Shown here: piece after piece, positions 37,662-46,492 of the stretch | Layout: the number at the start of each line of letters is the position of its first letter | Numbering within the stretch: the stretch's first letter is position 1 | Origin: Thetidibacter halocola | Lineage (GTDB): Bacteria; Pseudomonadota; Alphaproteobacteria; Rhodobacterales; Rhodobacteraceae | Length of the DNA stretch: 64,000 nucleotides | Assembly (NCBI RefSeq): GCF_018224955.1 | Contig: NZ_JAGTUU010000001.1 | Location: 372,001 to 436,000, forward strand | Direction: 5' to 3' | Translations under genes and position numbers: made by a program | Notes under the pieces: model-generated | What the model was told of the DNA's origin: nothing | What the model saw: the letters and a program-made list of their open reading frames with translations, nothing else | Database searches by the model: none

Positions 37662-38375
37662 ATGAGCCTTTCCGTCCAGGAACTGTCCTTTTCCTATGGC
37701 GCAAAACGCGCGCTGGACGCGGTGTCCTTCGAGGCCGCGCCGGGCCGGTTCACCGCCTTGCTGGGGCCGAACGGGGCGGGCAAGTCGACGCTGTTCTCGC
37801 TATTGACGGGGCTGTTCGTGGCGCCCTTGGGGCGGATCGTAGTGGCCGGGCATGACATGGCCAGCGCGCCGCGCGCGGCGCTGGCGGCGATGGGCGTGGT
37901 GTTCCAGCAGCCGACGCTGGATCTGGACCTGAGCGTGCGGCAGAACCTGCGCTACTTCGCGGCGTTGCATGGCTTGTCGGCGCGGGTGGCGGATGCCCGG
38001 ATCGACGCCGCGCTGGACCGTCTGGACATGCGCGAGCGCGCCGGGGAAAAGGCGCGCGCGCTGAATGGCGGGCACCGGCGGCGCACCGAGCTGGCGCGGG
38101 CCCTTCTGCACGAGCCGCGCGTGCTGTTGCTGGACGAGCCGACCGTGGGACTGGATGCCGCCGCGCGCGCCGCGATCACCGTGCATGTGCACGATCTGGC
38201 GGCGGGCGGACTGACCGTGCTGTGGGCGACGCACCTGACGGACGAGGTCCTGCCGGATGACGACCTGATCCTGCTGCATCGCGGCAAGATCGAGGCCGCG
38301 GGGCGCGCGGGCGACCTGCATGGCGCAATGCCGCTGAAGGACTGGTTCCTGACCCGCACCGGAGAGCCCGCATGA
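37662..38375 (+). CDS. ABC transporter ATPase (PedB/PQQ-associated)
   Basis: 237-residue single ABC module with Walker A GPNGAGKST, Q-loop FQQPTLDLDL, Walker B VLLLDEPTVGLD and switch His in WATHLTDE. The signature is LNGGHRRRTELARAL rather than LSGGQ, a Gln-to-His change I associate with this PQQ-linked subgroup. It is coupled to the permease by an ATGA overlap. Layout (single ATPase plus ABC-2 type permease) suggests export. Confidence 0.9.
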   Translation: MSLSVQELSFSYGAKRALDAVSFEAAPGRFTALLGPNGAGKSTLFSLLTGLFVAPLGRIVVAGHDMASAPRAALAAMGVVFQQPTLDLDLSVRQNLRYFAALHGLSARVADARIDAALDRLDMRERAGEKARALNGGHRRRTELARALLHEPRVLLLDEPTVGLDAAARAAITVHVHDLAAGGLTVLWATHLTDEVLPDDDLILLHRGKIEAAGRAGDLHGAMPLKDWFLTRTGEPA

Positions 38376-39163
38376 CCCGCTGGAGCGTGGCCTTTGGCGC
38401 CATCGCCTCGCGCGAGGTTCTGCGTTTCGTGCACCAGCGCGAGCGGTTCCTCGCCGCCTTGGTGCGGCCGCTGGTCTGGCTGCTGGTCTTTGCCGCCGGG
38501 TTCCGCGCCGCGCTGGGCCTCGCGATCACGCCGCCCTACCAGACCTACATCCCCTACGAGACCTACATCCTGCCGGGCCTGTGCGGGATGATCCTGCTGT
38601 TCAACGGCATGCAATCCTCGCTGAGCCTCGTCTACGACCGGGAAACCGGCTCGATGCGCCTTCTGCTGACTGCACCACTGCCACGGGGCTTCCTGCTGTT
38701 CGCGAAACTGTGCGGCGCGACCTTCATCGGCATCCTGCAAGTCTATGCCTTTCTCGGCATCGCCGCGGCCTTTGGCGTGGATGCGCCCGCCTGGGGTTAT
38801 CTCGCGGTGCTGCCGGCGCTGGTGCTGGCGGGGCTGATGCTGGGCGCGCTGGGGCTGGCGCTGTCGTCCTTCATCAAGCAGCTCGAGAATTTCGCCGGGG
38901 TGATGAATTTTGTCATCTTTCCAATGTTCTTCCTCAGCTCGGCGCTCTACCCGCTGTGGAAGATGGCTGAAAGCTCGCGGCTGCTGCACGACATCTGCCT
39001 CGCCAACCCGTTTACTCATGCGGTCGAGCTGATCCGTTTCGCGCTCTACCTGCAATGGAACGGCTGGGCGCTCTTGTGGACCGGGCTGGCGACGGTCGCC
39101 TTCATGGCGCTGGCGCTGTGGGGCTATGATCCGGCGCGCGGGCTGGTGCGGCGCAAGGGCTGA
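38372..39163 (+). CDS. ABC-2 type transporter permease (PedC-like)
   Basis: 263-residue membrane protein with six spans of the ABC-2 family. The conserved segment SLVYDRETGSMRLLLTAPLPR and the later ENFAGVMNFVIFPMFFLSSALYP (shown here only in part: NFVIFPMFFLSSALYP) with PFTHAVELIRF match drug/polysaccharide exporter permeases and the alcohol-linked PedC group. Partner of the preceding ATPase. A TGGTCGTAT motif (reverse strand) follows its stop codon. Confidence 0.9.
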   Translation: MTRWSVAFGAIASREVLRFVHQRERFLAALVRPLVWLLVFAAGFRAALGLAITPPYQTYIPYETYILPGLCGMILLFNGMQSSLSLVYDRETGSMRLLLTAPLPRGFLLFAKLCGATFIGILQVYAFLGIAAAFGVDAPAWGYLAVLPALVLAGLMLGALGLALSSFIKQLENFAGVMNFVIFPMFFLSSALYPLWKMAESSRLLHDICLANPFTHAVELIRFALYLQWNGWALLWTGLATVAFMALALWGYDPARGLVRRKG

Positions 39164-39165
39164 GG

Positions 39166-39175
39166 GATACGACCA
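39166..39175 (-). promoter_or_regulatory. GGTCGTAT motif before the Sel1-like gene
   Basis: ATACGACCAT on the plus strand, i.e. ATGGTCGTAT on the minus strand, 58 bases before the 39233 ATG. It matches eight bases of the motif before the 34831 and 41413 genes, but the orientation is opposite to the gene, so it is a weak call. Confidence 0.3.
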
Positions 39176-39232
39176 TCGCGGTGCTGCGCGGCATGCCCCA
39201 CCCGTGCTAGTCTGGCCGAAAGGAGACCGCTC

Positions 39233-39763
39233 ATGCGACCGACCCTGACCCTTTTCTGCCTGCTCTGCGCCGCGCCGTTGCTGGCCGAGGACTATGGCAC
39301 GCTGAATCCCGAGGAGATGACCTGGGGCAGCAACATTGCCAAGCTGGAACGGGGCGAGATCACCATGCCGCTTTGCGCCAGCGGCTACATGATGACGAAA
39401 TCGGGCGACCACGACACTGCGCGCAAGATCTTCGAGGCCTGCGCCGCCGCTGGCTATACCGGCACGATGACCTGGATGTCCTACATGGAAAACAACGGCT
39501 TCGGTGGCGACTACAACCCGGACGCGGCCGCCGACTGGGATCGCCTTGCGGCGGAACGCGGCGACCCGGTGGGCCTGTTCAACCACGGGCTGAACCTGCT
39601 GCGCGGCCATGGCATCGCGCGGGACGAGGCCGAGGGCAAGCGCATGGTGGAGACCGCTGCAGAGGCGGGGCTGGACATCGCGCAGGCGCTGATCGCGGCG
39701 GAGTGGGACCTGGACGCGGTGACGCCAGACGCTGACAACTGGCGGTATGCGCCGTCCTTCTGA
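39233..39763 (+). CDS. Exported Sel1-repeat-like protein
   Basis: 176 residues with a Sec signal (LTLFCLLCAAPLLA). The C-terminal half has helical Sel1/TPR-type repeats (AADWDRLAAERGDPVGLFN, GLNLLRGHGIARDEAEGKR, MVETAAEAGLDIAQALI). Such repeats mediate protein contacts. Two cysteines (CASGY, CAAAG) could form a disulfide. It ends the rightward PQQ-associated series and converges with the next ABC pair. Specific role unknown. Confidence 0.82.
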   Translation: MRPTLTLFCLLCAAPLLAEDYGTLNPEEMTWGSNIAKLERGEITMPLCASGYMMTKSGDHDTARKIFEACAAAGYTGTMTWMSYMENNGFGGDYNPDAAADWDRLAAERGDPVGLFNHGLNLLRGHGIARDEAEGKRMVETAAEAGLDIAQALIAAEWDLDAVTPDADNWRYAPSF

Positions 39764-39781
39764 GCGACGGCTTGCAGGGGC

Positions 39782-40435
39782 TCAGCCAGTCTGCTGCGAC
39801 GCCGCCAGCCGGGCCGGGTTGCCCTCCAGCAACAGGATGCGGTCCGCGAGGCGGCGCGCCTCTTCGGGCGCATGGGTGACCAGCAGCGTCGTGACCGTGC
39901 GCTTGGCGCGCAGCCGCTCGAACAGGCTCATCATCTCGTCCGCCAGCGCCGCGTCCAGTGAGACGAAGGGTTCGTCCATCAACAACAGGTCCGGCTCGCC
40001 GGCAAAGGCGCGGGCCAGCGCTATGCGGCGCTGCTGACCCAGGCTGAGTTGGCCGGGAAACCGGTCGCCGCGCCCGCCCAGACCCACCTCGGCCAAGGCA
40101 ACCTCGGCCTTGTCAGCGGAAATGCGCAGCGGGATCAGCAGGTTGTCGCGCAAGTTGCGCCAAGGCAGCAAGACCGGTTCCTGAAAGACCATCGCCAGGC
40201 GTGCAGGCCGGTCGACCTGGCCGCGATGGCGCGTCTCGATCCCGGCGAGGACCCGCAGCAACGTGGATTTTCCGATGCCCGAAGGGCCGGTCAGCGCCAC
40301 CGTCTCGCCCCGGCCCAGCGTCAGGTCGATGGGCCCGAGGATCGGCGTACCGCCCAGGCTGAGCCCGGGCAGCGACAGGCGCGCGACCGCGTCGCGCGCC
40401 GGGGCTGTTGCGTCATGCACCAGACGCAAGGCCAT
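39782..40435 (-). CDS. ABC transporter ATPase, nitrate/taurine type
   Basis: 217-residue importer ATPase: Walker A GPSGIGKST, Q-loop FQEPVLLPW, signature LSLGQQRRIALARA (LSLGQ instead of LSGGQ), Walker B LLLMDEPFVSLD and switch VTHAPEEA. It starts three bases after the binding-protein stop. No permease is adjacent; the orphan permease at 24460 is of the matching class. Confidence 0.92.
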   Translation of the reverse strand: MALRLVHDATAPARDAVARLSLPGLSLGGTPILGPIDLTLGRGETVALTGPSGIGKSTLLRVLAGIETRHRGQVDRPARLAMVFQEPVLLPWRNLRDNLLIPLRISADKAEVALAEVGLGGRGDRFPGQLSLGQQRRIALARAFAGEPDLLLMDEPFVSLDAALADEMMSLFERLRAKRTVTTLLVTHAPEEARRLADRILLLEGNPARLAASQQTG

Positions 40436-40438
40436 GGA

Positions 40439-41413
40439 TCACGAACCCGGCTGCACGAACAGGCCCGCAGGCAGGTCCGTGGCATCGCCCACCAGTTCGG
40501 TGCCGCCCAGCTCGGCCATCAGGCGCAGCATCTTCGCCGCGGCGGCCTCGTCGACGGGACCTGGGGTCGGGATGCCCGCGCGATAACCCGCCTTCAGCGC
40601 GGAGAATTGCGCATCGTTCGCGGCGTTCATCAGCGGACGCAGGCGGTCCCACTCGGCATCCGAGTTGGCCAGCAGGTCCTTGGCGTCGCGCGAGGCGCCC
40701 GCCAGCGCGTCGACCAGCGCAGGATTGTCGCGCAGCATCTCGCCTTTCAGGACATAACCCAGCAACGGTGTCTGCGGATCCAGCCCCAGCGCAATGGCGG
40801 CCTCGTCCACAGTAACCAGCGGCCGCATCCCGCCGGCCTCCATCTTGGCCAGGAAGTGCCAGAAGTTGATCGCGCCGCCCAGTTCGCCCTGCAGCGCGGT
40901 CTTGAAGATCAGCGGCGGCGCGCCAAAGACCTGCTCGGTTTCGGCGGCCAGGTCCATGCCGTGCTCCTGCTGGGCATAGGCGCGCAGGATCAGCCAGGAC
41001 TTGTCCAGCGGGCTGCCGGCGATTCCGATCTTTGCGCCCTTGAGGTCGGCCAGCGACTTTGCCGGGGAATCGCCCGGCACCATCAGCGCGCCGACCGCCC
41101 GGCTATAGGGAATGAAGACGTAATCATGCCCCGCCGCGCGCTGCCGCGCGACCCAGAGCCAGTCCGACACGATCACGTCCGCCGCGCCGCCCTGGAAGGC
41201 GACCTGCGCCGCAGGTCCCCCCGCAACGCCCTGCACGTCCAGCGAGAACCCGCGAGCCGTGTCGAAGCCGTTGTGCTTGATCGTGTCCAGTTCCCAATTC
41301 ACCGTGCCGGATTCCAGCACCGCGGCGCGCAGCACCGGCACCTCTGCCAGCGCCAGCGACGACGTCGCGACAAGCGCGGCAACCGCCGCGCGGATGGTTT
41401 GCATCATAGCCAT
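40439..41413 (-). CDS. Substrate-binding protein, NitT/TauT type
   Basis: 324 residues with a Sec signal (TIRAAVAALVATSSLALA). The mature part follows the SsuA/TauA pattern: VNWELDTIKHNGFDTARGF, VAFQGGAADVIVSDWLWV, DLKGAKIGIAGSPLDKSW. GGGAGGACAAC sets the start. Similar proteins occur in methanol and PQQ-alcohol gene clusters; the ligand is unknown. A CCAATGGTCGTATT motif lies 51 bases upstream. Confidence 0.9.
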   Translation of the reverse strand: MAMMQTIRAAVAALVATSSLALAEVPVLRAAVLESGTVNWELDTIKHNGFDTARGFSLDVQGVAGGPAAQVAFQGGAADVIVSDWLWVARQRAAGHDYVFIPYSRAVGALMVPGDSPAKSLADLKGAKIGIAGSPLDKSWLILRAYAQQEHGMDLAAETEQVFGAPPLIFKTALQGELGGAINFWHFLAKMEAGGMRPLVTVDEAAIALGLDPQTPLLGYVLKGEMLRDNPALVDALAGASRDAKDLLANSDAEWDRLRPLMNAANDAQFSALKAGYRAGIPTPGPVDEAAAAKMLRLMAELGGTELVGDATDLPAGLFVQPGS

Positions 41414-41463
41414 GTTGTCCTCCCGAACTTCGACATGACCCTATCAGCCCGGCGGCTGCGCTG

Positions 41464-41477
41464 AATACGACCATTGG
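41464..41477 (-). promoter_or_regulatory. Shared promoter motif, 41413-gene copy
   Basis: AATACGACCATTGG on the plus strand; read leftward CCAATGGTCGTATT, 51 bases before the binding-protein ATG. It is the best match to the motif at 34773-34788 (GGTCGTATT identical). The same control region carries an FNR-type box for the rightward cytochrome. Confidence 0.55.
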
Positions 41478-41489
41478 ACAGGGCCACCG

Positions 41490-41503
41490 TTGATCTGGAT
41501 CAA
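41490..41503. promoter_or_regulatory. FNR/FixK-type box
   Basis: TTGATCTGGATCAA is a perfect match to TTGAT-N4-ATCAA. Its centre lies 67 bases before the cytochrome ATG, which would put the start of transcription about 26 bases before the ATG if it acts as a class II (-41.5) activator. It implies low-oxygen or redox control of the cytochrome. Confidence 0.7.
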
Positions 41504-41563
41504 CACCGCGTGACGCTGCACGGGCCTAGCCTGCCCTCGTATCGCAACCAAAGGAGAGACCCC

Positions 41564-41965
41564 ATGACCCGCCTGCTGAGCGCCGCGCTGTGCCTTGTCG
41601 CCCTGCCCGCCTTCGCCGACACGTTCGAACAGGTCAAGGTTGCGGCGGGCCAGAGCCTGTTCGAGGCCGAATGCCGCCGTTGCCACGCCACGGATTCCAG
41701 CGACCCGTCCTATGGCCCGCCGCTCGAGAACGTGCTGTATCGCGCCGCGGGAAGTGTTGCGGATTACGACTATTCGATTGCGCTCGAGGCCTCTGGCATC
41801 GTCTGGACCCCGGCCGCCCTGCGCGCCTGGATGGAGGACAATGACGGCTTCATGCCCGGCACCAAGATGCGCCATGTCGGCATCGAGGACCGCACGGTGC
41901 AGGACTTCATCCTAGCCTACCTCACGTCCATCAGCCCGCAGGACAACCGCGCGATCCAGAAATGA
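41564..41965 (+). CDS. Small periplasmic cytochrome c
   Basis: 133 residues: Sec signal (MTRLLSAALCLVALPAFA), class I haem site CRRCHATDSSDPSYGPP at about residue 36, and a Met ligand in FMPGTKMRHVG. Resembles cytochrome c2/c552-type carriers. AAGGAGAGACCCC precedes the ATG. Lying ahead of the PQQ alcohol dehydrogenase, it could be an alternative electron acceptor used at low oxygen given its FNR box (inference). Confidence 0.9.
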   Translation: MTRLLSAALCLVALPAFADTFEQVKVAAGQSLFEAECRRCHATDSSDPSYGPPLENVLYRAAGSVADYDYSIALEASGIVWTPAALRAWMEDNDGFMPGTKMRHVGIEDRTVQDFILAYLTSISPQDNRAIQK

Positions 41966-42075
41966 TGCCGCCGCGCCCGGAGTGGTTGCGCCGCTCTGCG
42001 CGATCGGGTTGACCGCCCGGCGGACCCGGGGTTTGCATCAAGGTGCCCGCAACCAGAAAGTCGCAGAGGGGCGCC

Positions 42076-42651
42076 ATGCCGAATGACAGTGCGAGCCCGG
42101 AACCGGGCGTCAGGCCGCCTCCAGACCCGCTTCCCGCAGGGGTTTCGGTCTGGCGGTACCAGTCGATGCCCCGGCTGCTGCGCCGGGGCAATCTGCGCGA
42201 CCAGTACGATTTCCATCCCTCTGGCCTCGTGGTCTTTTCCTGCGCCGATCCCGATTGGCCCGTGCTGTTTCAAGCGGGCGAAGGCGACACCCACCGGTTC
42301 AGTGCGTCGCCCGACACGATTCGCCGGCTCATCGGCGTCCTGCGCGATCACGTCCCGCCGCTCGAGGCGGCGCGCCGGCGGATGCCCCGGCGCTGGGGCC
42401 TGTTCCCGCCAAGACCGCACCTGTCGTGCATCGAGGTCGGCGATGATATCCGCGTCACCTTTGAGCGCGGACGGTGGGGCATCCAGAAAAAGGGACTCTG
42501 GATGGGTGTGCACCGGCTGCACACGGCAGAGTTGCAGGCCCTGGCGGACGTTCTGGCACACCTGATCGGCGCGGACCGCCCCGGTTCCGACGATTCGGTT
42601 GAGGATGAGTCGGGTGATTCTCCTGCCATCCTGTCAAGTCGCCAGAAGTAG
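42076..42651 (+). CDS. Hypothetical protein
   Basis: 191-residue protein with no signal peptide or membrane span and no family I recognise. It is rich in Arg/Pro, with a central beta-rich part ([39 protein letters not shown]) and an acidic tail ([14 protein letters not shown]). GAGGGG precedes the ATG; third-position GC bias agrees with coding. It lies between a cytochrome and the alcohol dehydrogenase but has its own spacing on both sides (110 and 118 bases). Confidence 0.6.
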
Positions 42652-42769
42652 TACGACCCAAGTCGCGTATCGCCCCCGACCTTGCCCCGTATACTCCAGC
42701 CCCAGACCGGCCCCGACTGCCGCTTGCAGCCGAGACCATACCGAAGCCTTGTTCATGGGAGGAGACAGA

Positions 42770-44536
42770 ATGAACAGATTCGTCGCCGCCGTCGCCCTGA
42801 GCCTGCTCGCCGCTACCGGCGTCCAGGCCAACGTGACGGAAGATATGCTGGCCAACGACCAGGCGAGTGCCGCCGATGTCGTCACGAACGGCATGGGTCG
42901 TCACCTGCAGCGGTATTCGCCGCTCGAAACCCTCAACAAGGAGAATGTCGGCAACCTCGTTCCCGCCTGGGCCTTCAGCCTCGGCGGCGAAAAGCAGCGC
43001 GGCCAGGAAACCCAGCCGCTGGTGCATGACGGGATCATGTACATCACCGGCTCGTATTCGCGGATGTATGCCATCGACGTGAAGACCGGCCGCGAGCTCT
43101 GGCAATACGACGCCCGCCTGCCCGAAGGCATCCTGCCCTGCTGCGACGTCATCAACCGCGGCGCAGCGCTCTGGAACGACAAGGTCATCTTCGGCACGCT
43201 CGACGCGCGCCTGGTAGCTCTGGACGCCAAGACCGGCGATGTGGTCTGGAACAAGAAGATCGCCGACTATAAGGCGGGCTATTCCTATACCGCCGCGCCG
43301 CTGATCGTGAACGGCCTCGTCGTGACCGGCAACTCGGGCGGTGAATTCGGCATCGTCGGCGAAGTGCAGGCCCGCAATGCCGACACCGGCGAGCTGGTAT
43401 GGACCCGTCCGGTGATCGAGGGCCACATGGGCACACTCAATGGCCAGGAATCCACCATGACCGGCACGCTGAACGCGACCTGGCCGGGCGACATGTGGAA
43501 GACCGGCGGCGGCGCCACCTGGCTGGGCGGCAGCTATGACGCGCGCACCGACACGTTGATCTTCGGCACCGGCAACCCGGCGCCCTGGAACAGCCACCTG
43601 CGCAATGCGGGCACCCCGACGGACGGGAATGCAGGCGACAACCTGTATGCGGCCAGCCGCATCGGCATCGACCCGGCCACCGGCGAGATCAAGTGGCATT
43701 TCCAGACCACCCCGCGCGAGGGCTGGGACTATGACGGCGTGAACGAGGTCGTGGCCTACGACGCCCGCGACGGCAGCCAGCGCCTCGCCACCGCCGACCG
43801 CAACGGCTTCTTCTACGTGCTCGATGCGGCGGATGGCGGCTATGTCGGCTCTGTGCCCTTCGTCAAGGACATCACCTGGGCAAGCGGCATCGACGAGAAC
43901 GGCCGCCCGATCTTCATCGAGGAAAACCGGCCCGGCAATCCCGCCGCGGCAGCCGATGGCAAGAAGGGCGATGTCGTTTTCTCGTCGCCCGGCTTCCTCG
44001 GTGGCAAGAACTGGATGCCGATGGCGTTCTCGCAGCGCACCGGCAATTTCTACGTCCCCTCGAACGAGTGGGGCATGGATATCTGGAACGAGCCGGTGAC
44101 CTACAAGAAGGGCGCGGCCTACCTGGGTTCGGGCTTTACCATCAAGCCCAACTACGAGGACCACATCGGCAGCCTCAAGGCGATCGACCCCGACACGCTG
44201 GAGGTCAAGTGGGAGGTCAAGAACGAGGCTCCGCTCTGGGGCGGCGTGATGACCACCGCCGGCGGCCTGGTGTTCTACGGCACGCCCGAGGGCGAGTTCG
44301 TGGCGCTGGATGACGAGACCGGCGAACAGCTGTGGTCCTTCCAGACCGGCTCGGGCATCGTCGGGCAGCCGGTGACCTGGGAACAGGACGGCGAGCAGTA
44401 TGTATCGATCGTGTCCGGTTGGGGCGGCGCGGTGCCGCTCTGGGGTGGCGAAGTGGCCAAGAAGGTCAACTACCTCAACCAGGGTGGCATGGTCTGGACA
44501 TTCCGCCTGCCCAAGGAACTGGCCTCGGCCAACTGA
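42770..44536 (+). CDS. PQQ-dependent alcohol dehydrogenase with lanthanide-type active site
   Basis: Periplasmic quinoprotein oxidising primary alcohols (perhaps methanol or ethanol) to aldehydes. 588 residues: Sec signal ([20 protein letters not shown]), eight-bladed propeller with repeated W-docking motifs, adjacent Cys124-Cys125 ([10 protein letters not shown]) that form the ring disulfide facing PQQ, and WDYDGVNE at 320, in which Asp320 is the catalytic base and Asp322 occupies the position that ligates a lanthanide in XoxF/PedH. There is no fused cytochrome domain. GGGAGGAGACAGA gives a strong ribosome site. Two cytochromes, a MoxJ-like protein and PedABC-like genes are nearby, but no PQQ biosynthesis genes in the window. 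Confidence 0.93.
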
Positions 44537-44559
44537 TCCCTCGCGGATCGAAACCAGAG

Positions 44560-44595
44560 CGCCCGGCGGTTTCCGTCGGGCGTTTTGGTTTTTTT
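44560..44595 (+). terminator. Rho-independent terminator after the alcohol dehydrogenase
   Basis: CGCCCGGCGG (44560-44569) pairs with CCGTCGGGCG (44573-44582) with one G-T wobble and a TTT loop, followed by TTTTGGTTTTTTT. Strong and correctly placed 23 bases after the stop codon. Confidence 0.92.
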
Positions 44596-44695
44596 GAGCC
44601 CATGGCCGCGCCCTGCTCAGGCCGGGCGCGCAGCAAGCACCTGTTACCCTCTCTTTCAAACCGCGAGAGCATCCGATCGATATTTCCACCCTTGG

Positions 44696-44709
44696 TTGAT
44701 ATGCGTCAA
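44696..44709. promoter_or_regulatory. FNR/FixK-type box upstream of the unknown-function pair
   Basis: TTGATATGCGTCAA fits TTGAT-N4-(A/G)TCAA. It is about 150 bases before the 44858 ATG, in the otherwise featureless 44596-44857 gap, so the leader would be long if it drives that gene. Confidence 0.45.
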
Positions 44710-44857
44710 ATTCATCCGCCGGAATGCGGCCCATAGTGCCCAAGCGCTTGCCCGGATCGGGGCGCGGAAACGGGCCAGGTTTCGATCGGCCCCGTGAATT
44801 CCGGTCATCGGGCCCGCACCGCGGCGCAGACTCAAGATCGCCCGCATGGAGGACAGG

Positions 44858-45982
44858 ATGCCCGAAGAAGACACGCTCTTTACCGACGAGGAATTGCAGG
44901 ACATCAGCACCGCGGCCGCGCTTGCGGCGGCGGGATGTTCCGCCGTATCCGCCGCGGCCGCTCCGACCTGCTGGGCGGTGGCCGGCGGTGCGATCAGCGC
45001 CTTGTACACGGCGGACTGGATCTGGGACAATCTCGTGCCTGATGCGGTCAAATCCTTCATCTACGACCACGTGGCGGCCGAGGGTGTGTTCGACTGGCAG
45101 ACCCTCTATGACCCGATCTACAAGTTTTGCGTCGAAAGCCATGCGAAGGCTGTGCTGTCGGTCGATGCTGCCTGGGCCGAGATGCACGGCCAGCCGCCCG
45201 GGCCCTCACCCGCCGGGGCGTTCCTGAACGACTGGGTCAACCGAAACGGCTGGCGCAAGGCAGTCGAGGTCGATTTCAAGGTCGACGGCAAGATGCGCTG
45301 GATGAAGCTTCGCCCCGACCTGGGCCCCTGGGTGATCGAGTGGGGCCCAAGCATGCCGAAACGCGCCGACACCGGAGGCAAGGAGGCCTTTGCGAAGACG
45401 ATCGTCAACATCCTGACGGCGCACCGGCTGTCCGTCCTTCAGCGCGCGGTGCAGGAAACGCTGGTTTTCACGGCGCTGTCGCTGACCGGCACGGCGTGGA
45501 AGGTCTATGCTGGCCCGGTCCGCGAAGCGGTTTGGGTGCATGGCAGTTCTGTCACGCCCGAACGCCGCGGCGACCTGTCTGCGGCGCAGGTCTTTGGCAG
45601 TGGCGCGCGCTATCACGCGAAACCGGGACAGCGGGCCTGGTTTCACGTCCAGGTGCCCACGCCTGCGCTGATCGACGACATCCGCCCGGTCTGCACCAAG
45701 ATATTCCTGATGTTCCAGACCAGCGGCGCGCGGATGGAGGCGCTTCATGTCTATGACGGCGCACACAGGGTCGCGCAATTCGATGACCTCGCTTTCGATG
45801 GCGATCATCACATCGGTTTCGACGCGGCCAACGCCCGGCTGCTCTTTCCCTGCCCGACGATCCAGAGCGGGTTGAGCCTGTCGTCGCTGATTCATTTCGG
45901 TCCGGGCGTTGCCTCCGGACAGAGCACGGATCCCTGGGTGCACTTCACGACCGCAGGGGCGGATTTCAATCGTTCGGCCTGA
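44858..45982 (+). CDS. Unknown protein: hydrophobic leader-like N-terminus plus C-terminal domain shared with next gene
   Basis: 374 residues. Residues 1-20 are acidic (PEEDTLFTDEELQDIS); 21-55 are small and hydrophobic with two Cys (AAAGCSAVSAAAAPTCWAVA) and a GG, resembling a bacteriocin-type leader and core. A middle part of about 160 residues is unrecognised. From about residue 232 (REAVWVHGSSV) to the end it is clearly paralogous to the entire 46016 product: WFHVQVPTPALIDDIRP, LHVYDGAHRVA, FTTAGADF. I recall that domain as a family of unknown function (DUF6623-like). GGAGG sits five bases before this ATG. An FNR-type box lies upstream. Confidence 0.8.
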   Translation: MPEEDTLFTDEELQDISTAAALAAAGCSAVSAAAAPTCWAVAGGAISALYTADWIWDNLVPDAVKSFIYDHVAAEGVFDWQTLYDPIYKFCVESHAKAVLSVDAAWAEMHGQPPGPSPAGAFLNDWVNRNGWRKAVEVDFKVDGKMRWMKLRPDLGPWVIEWGPSMPKRADTGGKEAFAKTIVNILTAHRLSVLQRAVQETLVFTALSLTGTAWKVYAGPVREAVWVHGSSVTPERRGDLSAAQVFGSGARYHAKPGQRAWFHVQVPTPALIDDIRPVCTKIFLMFQTSGARMEALHVYDGAHRVAQFDDLAFDGDHHIGFDAANARLLFPCPTIQSGLSLSSLIHFGPGVASGQSTDPWVHFTTAGADFNRSA

Positions 45983-46015
45983 GCGCCGCGACAACCGAAG
46001 ATACGGAGCGATACC

Positions 46016-46492
46016 ATGATCAAGCGTGCAGTCTGGGTTCACGGCAACGCCGTGGTCGCCGAACGCCCAAAGGACCTGACCGAGGAAATCCGGATCGGTT
46101 GGGGCAGCAAGTTCCAGCTGCGGGCCGGGACGAGGAACTGGTTCCATGTCTCGATTCCGACACCTGTCCTGATCGACGATGTCCGCCCGAAACTGGCGCG
46201 GGTCTTTGTGCTGTTCAAGACATCCAAGCCGGAAAGCGGCGGTGTCTTCATCGGCTCGACCCTGGAAAAGCTGCACGTCTATGACGGTCACAATCGCGTC
46301 GCTGCGATCACCGGAATGCGCACCGGGAACCACGCGAACGCCATCGACAGCGCCAACACCTGGGAATTCGACGCGCCGCTGTCGATCTTCAGCGGGCTTG
46401 GACTGTCGATGGAGATCAGCGCGGCACAGGTCGGCACGGACACGACGCCCCAACCGGTCGAGTTCGCGACCATCGGCGCCGACTTCGTTTAG
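46016..46492 (+). CDS. Single-domain paralogue of the preceding unknown protein
   Basis: 158 residues consisting only of the beta-rich domain that ends the previous protein: RAVWVHGNAVVAERPKDL, WFHVSIPTPVLIDDVRP, LHVYDGHNRVAAI and FATIGADFV. No signal peptide, no Cys. It starts 33 bases after its partner (ACGGAGCG ribosome site), so the two were probably made by tandem duplication followed by addition of an N-terminal part to the first. Function unknown. Confidence 0.85.
   Translation: MIKRAVWVHGNAVVAERPKDLTEEIRIGWGSKFQLRAGTRNWFHVSIPTPVLIDDVRPKLARVFVLFKTSKPESGGVFIGSTLEKLHVYDGHNRVAAITGMRTGNHANAIDSANTWEFDAPLSIFSGLGLSMEISAAQVGTDTTPQPVEFATIGADFV

Follow-up and report, generated by a model that had tools for sequence, protein, structure and literature searches.

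A DUF6623 gene pair downstream of an FnrL-type box in Thetidibacter halocola

Within the stretch of Thetidibacter halocola DNA that we analyzed (64,000 nucleotides, hereafter the window), we identified two neighbouring genes, P1 and P2, which share a DUF6623 domain and are likely to be under the control of FnrL, and hence linked to low oxygen. The best explanation of our results, which we hold with moderate confidence, is that P1 and P2 are an FnrL-linked pair in which DUF6623 acts as a binding or assembly module and the stand-alone P2 positions the helical domain of P1. DUF6623 had already been catalogued as a family; what is new here is its predicted fold, its fusions to enzymes and the close-neighbour pairing of its genes. 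With this fold, these fusions and a recurrent two-gene logic, the function of an uncharacterised family becomes testable, and the family gains, from the window, a member that has an N-terminal domain still to be explained and is likely switched in an oxygen-linked way.

The P1-P2 locus and its FnrL-type box

Both tandem open reading frames of the original prediction were confirmed, and the locus comprises the following features:

44550..44595, + strand: hairpin and T-run, likely terminator 3' of the PQQ alcohol dehydrogenase gene
44696-44709, + strand: FnrL/FNR-type box TTGATATGCGTCAA, 148 bp before the P1 start, an exact TTGAYNNNNRTCAA
44848..44852, + strand: GGAGG, likely ribosome-binding site of P1, judged from sequence
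44858-45982, + strand: P1, 374 amino acids
44858..45520, + strand: P1 residues 1-221, no known family, predicted mostly helical in a low-confidence model
44903..45007, + strand: hydrophobic Ala-rich stretch, P1 residues 16-50, with Cys27, Cys38 and GG43
45521..45979, + strand: P1 residues 222-374, DUF6623 domain (PF20328, 41.3 bits; cut-off 27)
46005..46008, + strand: GGAG, likely ribosome-binding site of P2, judged from sequence
46016-46492, + strand: P2, stand-alone DUF6623 protein, 158 amino acids (PF20328, 36.8 bits; cut-off 27)

P1 and P2 lie head to tail with a gap of 33 bp and may form a two-gene unit, a proposal that carries the moderate confidence given to the best explanation as a whole. 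They are located beside a PQQ alcohol dehydrogenase cluster, and the upstream gene encodes the dehydrogenase itself (TIGR03075, above cut-off). The hairpin between this gene and P1 (20 pairs, -34.9 kcal/mol and seven T at its end, by RNA folding of 44546-44600), which was absent from the list of a simple terminator scan, likely separates P1-P2 from the dehydrogenase gene. The downstream gene is HerA-like as judged by eye, with no match in NCBIfam. In 14 of 17 relative genomes, the gene on the far side of this HerA-like gene still lies within 1.5 kb of it, but none of their 19 loci, several of which are cut short, has P1, P2 or the dehydrogenase within that distance; the P1-P2 neighbourhood is consistent with a lineage-specific block. 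The PQQ-dependent alcohol dehydrogenase cluster itself spans window positions 37662-44536 and includes ABC transporter genes (TIGR03864 and TIGR03861) together with the TIGR03075 dehydrogenase.

The FNR-type box of the original prediction proved to be an exact TTGAYNNNNRTCAA, a pattern that occurs at two sites in the window against 0.08 expected, and at 42 sites genome-wide against 2 for a reversed-pattern control. Published sites for FnrL in Rhodobacter capsulatus follow the pattern (T/C/A)TGA-N6-TCAA (PMC4634722). The genome also encodes fnrL (453.8 bits; cut-off 300), which adjoins one of the 42 sites. P1-P2 thus shows both sequence features expected of a member of an FnrL regulon, as a consensus site precedes it and its genome encodes fnrL. 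We inspected what lies beside 31 of the 42 sites and scanned ten neighbouring proteins of our own selection: six scored above cut-off (ccoN, ccoG, hemN, an FtrB-type regulator, a TsoY-family protein and an RND adaptor), NarK-like (its gene cut short), rhodanese-like and GntR-like proteins scored below it, and one had no family match. Since the box is exact, the sites outnumber the control so clearly, and ccoN, ccoG, hemN and fnrL lie beside such boxes, FnrL control of P1-P2 is likely. That the box is accidental or serves another gene, P1-P2 not being oxygen regulated, appears unlikely to us. Such a reading would agree with the failure to find a sigma-70-like promoter at P1-P2, with the distance of 148 bp between box and start codon, and with the several scanned box neighbours that are not known low-oxygen genes, but it has to accommodate an exact match of a pattern so enriched over its control, a site downstream of the likely terminator of the upstream gene, and the presence of fnrL. 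A second exact FnrL-type box lies at window positions 41490-41503, between a divergent gene (no NCBIfam match) and a cytochrome c550-like gene (below cut-off) that belongs to the PQQ alcohol dehydrogenase cluster.

The DUF6623 domain and the N-terminal part of P1

The original prediction described P2 as equal to the C-terminus of P1. The motifs listed for the two proteins (WVHG, WFHV-PTP-LIDD, LHVYDG and GADF) are indeed common to both, but "equal" was an overstatement, as P2 is 44% identical to the last ~150 residues of P1. When P2 was used as query against its own genome, it matched only itself and P1 (E 1.6e-27, far beyond chance). The shared domain corresponds to Pfam DUF6623 (PF20328), with matches spanning P1 residues 224-318 and P2 residues 1-107; the term "unknown-domain pair" is therefore apt in that the domain has no assigned function, but not in that it is a catalogued family. 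No paper on DUF6623 (PF20328) was found in the library searched. In an alignment of 43 rows, both window copies included, the columns W7, H9, G10, E16, G28, W42 and H44 are invariant, and the W-x-H-G, E, G and W-x-H columns of the DUF6623 relatives are thus kept in P1 and P2. By eye, no obvious signal peptide is present at the start of P1, P2 or most relatives examined, and two relatives (L010 and L129) have Tat-like starts.

Structure prediction, proposed for both proteins, gave a confident result for P2 and for the DUF6623 part of P1, but not for P1 residues 1-221. The AlphaFold2 model of P2, with the 43 aligned rows as input, has a mean pLDDT of 93.9 and a pTM of 0.88, and is all-beta, with ten strands and no helix of at least four residues listed; the pLDDT blocks of the corresponding part of P1 lie at 92-98, except two at 69 and 82. 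The best Foldseek matches of the P2 model were the EphA7 ligand-binding domain (E 3.3e-4) and CBM16 (E 9.5e-4), and the best VIA-align match was the CBM BT0996-C (Z 9.8), others being a mannanase CBM, CBM61, an astacin MAM domain, CBM86, CBM4, CBM27, Cry and Eph. Among the best 50 fold matches listed, Z ranged from 8.1 to 9.8 over 113-140 residues at 4-12% identity, and MAM (Z 9.0) and Eph (8.9) came nearly equal to the top CBM. Since even models without a clear match typically reach a top Z of 7 to 8 in VIA-align, the value of 9.8 indicates a common fold, not a function. We conclude that DUF6623 is, as a high-confidence predicted fold, a common jelly-roll-type beta-sandwich. The predicted fold of P2 is like that of the jelly-roll CBM4, 6, 27, 61 and 86, Eph ligand-binding and MAM domains, whereas the sequences in the matches listed are only 4-12% identical, and the predicted likeness is no proof of membership in these families. 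By sequence, P2 had no match among solved structures and P1 nothing better than E 0.24. For P2, a PHROGs scan returned one weak match only (E 0.071) and a PADLOC scan one weak match (JAB, E 0.048); PADLOC was empty for P1, and a role as a defence system was rejected on these PADLOC results.

P1 residues 1-221 matched nothing in four libraries (Pfam, NCBIfam, PHROGs and PADLOC), as the original prediction had it for the middle part of P1, and contain neither HExxH nor GxSxG. Their model is mostly helical, with a pLDDT of 38-73 by block of ten. The acidic, leader-like start was confirmed, with D or E at 7 of the first 15 positions, and the small hydrophobic stretch with Cys and GG is present at residues 16-50, although its hydrophobicity is mild (best 19-residue Kyte-Doolittle mean 1.55, weak for a membrane helix). 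The N-terminal part is probably coding, because its codon-position GC (0.63/0.49/0.84) resembles that of the neighbouring PQQ dehydrogenase gene (0.61/0.47/0.87). A search of 385 genomes of the class recovered its own copy and two partial matches (E 5-7e-4 per genome; 69 and 77 residues; 34% and 29% identity), which are likely due to chance given that 385 genomes were searched. None was found in plasmid records or in IMG/VR, the latter in a scan seeded by short peptide patterns, which distant relatives can escape. The suggested search for the fusion in other genomes thus came out negative: the P1 architecture, a 221-residue orphan N-terminus followed by DUF6623, was present in none of the fetched loci and, the two doubtful partial matches aside, in none of the 385 genomes. 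At the level of sequence, this domain is without convincing relative. A phage origin was rejected, as three IMG/VR scans (P2, the P1 N-terminal part and the 43-row alignment), whose short-pattern seeding can miss distant sequences, returned no relative, and a search of 50,697 phage records with P1 gave none with an E of 1 or less.

DUF6623 pairs and enzyme fusions in other genomes

DUF6623 is rare and scattered. Among 198 genomes of the family, the P2 query matched one, the genome it came from. Counts of genomes with PF20328 above cut-off, each of which includes the centre genome, were 2 of 398 for the phylum, 2 of 247 for that of Fibrisoma and 2 of 246 for that of Micromonospora; the domain was found in none of 14 control genomes. 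A contig scan yielded 31 DUF6623 loci (labelled L below) out of 75 pattern matches, assigned by record titles to Bacteroidota, Actinomycetota, Clostridium, Chloroflexi, proteobacteria, Phycisphaerae and methanogenic archaea, the archaeal ones being short MAG contigs for which mis-binning is possible. Plasmid records with DUF6623 were only those of Nonomuraea and Gordonia.

The domain is attached to the N or the C end of catalytic domains, namely metzincins, matrixins, a subtilase and likely alpha/beta-hydrolases; the HEAT-like and alpha/beta-hydrolase labels used here are based on below-cut-off Pfam scores. In cassette A, found at eight loci of Bacteroidota, Sphingomonadales and Micromonospora (L019, L021, L024, L029, L030, L032, L034 and L035), a DUF6623-metzincin gene is followed by a HEAT-like gene and then a stand-alone DUF6623 gene. 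All eight fused proteins carry HExGHxxGxxH and LMTG; of two scanned with Pfam, one scored above the matrixin and reprolysin cut-offs and the other did not. The HEAT-like gene was recognised by clustering at seven loci and by tblastn at L035, and of three such proteins scanned, two fell just below the HEAT_2 cut-off and one had no match; its product may act with the protease as a partner, or inhibit it. Cassette A and the window pair have in common that a stand-alone DUF6623 gene comes after a fused one on the same strand. The two differ in that the cassette A metzincins have HExxH and DUF6623 at the N end, with the HEAT-like gene between the copies, whereas P1 is without HExxH and has DUF6623 at its C end, with no gene between P1 and P2.

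Seven scan loci (B: L023, L026, L027, L028, L031, L033 and L038, with L130 as an eighth relative) encode a PG-binding domain, a matrixin domain and a C-terminal DUF6623, an arrangement confirmed by Pfam in 3 of 3 scanned. HEFGHxLGLRH is present in 7/7, and RCGMPD in 5/7, the other two having RCAMPD and RCGVHD, and L130 RCGNAD. These bacterial fusions are MMP-like in their series of PG-binding domain, cysteine-switch-like motif, matrixin catalytic domain and DUF6623. The motif RCGxPD resembles the cysteine switch of animal MMPs, which have hemopexin at the place where the bacterial fusions have DUF6623. A small related ORF lies 5' of the matrixin fusion at five loci, and neither of two scanned gave a match above the Pfam cut-off. 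The other layouts are two subtilase-type DUF6623 genes in tandem (C: L020, one scanned); a stand-alone DUF6623 gene followed by DUF6623 with an alpha/beta-hydrolase-like part (D: L022 and L025 by Pfam below cut-off, L128 by likeness to these); and tandem stand-alone DUF6623 genes (E: L036). The hosts in D are two methanogen MAGs and a deltaproteobacterial MAG, pointing to cross-domain transfer or mis-binned contigs.

More than one copy was present in 12 of 31 genomes or records with a match and in the window genome, and the copies are close neighbours in 13/13; since one genome holds two pairs, there are 14 pairs in all. Twelve of these join a fused and a stand-alone DUF6623 (eight of cassette A, three of D and the window pair), in keeping with the predicted related partner next door, and the other two are one fused with fused and one stand-alone with stand-alone. 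In eight pairs the copies are separated by the single HEAT-like gene, and are thus neighbours but not adjacent. The 19 single-copy genomes or records, which include some incomplete MAGs and one plasmid record in which a partner could be missed, comprise 7 with a matrixin fusion only and 12 with a stand-alone gene only. Four further genomes, from the scans of the Fibrisoma and Micromonospora phyla, gave one match each. Pairing of DUF6623 genes is thus recurrent but not obligatory.

The window copies are sisters in our trees, with a support of 91/97 in the first tree (not starred) and of 98/97 after removal of the longest branches. In both trees, identical rows were collapsed and the L007 rows dropped, so that the Alteraurantiacibacter pair (L007/L024) is absent; the second also lacks the long branches L040, L039, L009 and one L036 row, and L128-L131 are in neither. 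Grouping of P2 with the stand-alone genes of cassette A was rejected (AU p 0.003, a value weakened by the group having been named after the first tree was seen). By these trees, the window pair is a separate duplication with a fused and a stand-alone gene; as the window copies are sisters and the cassette A grouping is rejected, this layout probably arose more than once.

Possible roles of P1 and P2

DUF6623 is small, a predicted beta-sandwich, and attached N- or C-terminally to catalytic domains that are unrelated to one another; in this it resembles an accessory module that is itself non-catalytic. We infer that it would bind a surface ligand (glycan or protein), its own kind, or both, and that this binding would position whatever is fused to it. 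P2 would then be the stand-alone partner of P1, and the two, probably regulated in the cell by FnrL and so tied to low oxygen, would place the 221-residue helical domain, and with it a putative activity, at a target, as the DUF6623 proteases and hydrolases elsewhere are likely placed. The lack of an obvious signal peptide on P1, P2 and most relatives is a poor fit with a surface role.

That same lack on P1 and P2 would suit a tentative alternative, in which they serve inside the cell as a stress or scaffold pair at low oxygen, with DUF6623 as the part that binds a metabolite or protein and the hydrophobic N-terminus as a tether of P1 to the inner membrane. The FnrL-type box and the location beside the PQQ alcohol dehydrogenase cluster would be equally at home there, but the titles of many top fold matches name extracellular modules, two relatives have Tat-like starts, and the hydrophobic stretch of P1 is weak for a membrane helix. 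We consider it very unlikely that P1 is the toxin or bacteriocin-like effector of the original prediction, its acidic start and GG stretch being a leader and membrane-active part, with P2 as immunity protein. The acidic residues, the Cys and GG in the hydrophobic stretch and the two adjacent related genes suggested it, yet no C39 leader peptidase (PF03412) was found in the genome, as compared with 8 of 14 control genomes that have one, and neither a toxin family nor, in Pfam and NCBIfam up to E 10, a leader or bacteriocin family matched P1, although short leaders can be missed; on the absent peptidase and leader family, the bacteriocin-like N-terminus was discarded. Immunity is likewise disfavoured: what P2 has in common with P1 is the accessory domain and not the orphan part, and a stand-alone DUF6623 often occurs with no fused gene beside it, as in the 12 single-copy genomes or records above, which argues that it is not simply an antidote to the fused one.

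Beyond the preferred reading of P1-P2 as an FnrL-linked pair, it is possible, though speculative, that DUF6623 is a portable pairing or targeting module in general, in which fused and stand-alone copies assemble and the cargo is swapped, being a metzincin, a matrixin, a subtilase, an alpha/beta-hydrolase or, in the window, the new helical domain under FnrL. P1-P2 would then be a low-oxygen version with a new cargo class. Were DUF6623 such a module, this would explain scattered hypothetical proteins encoded beside proteases.
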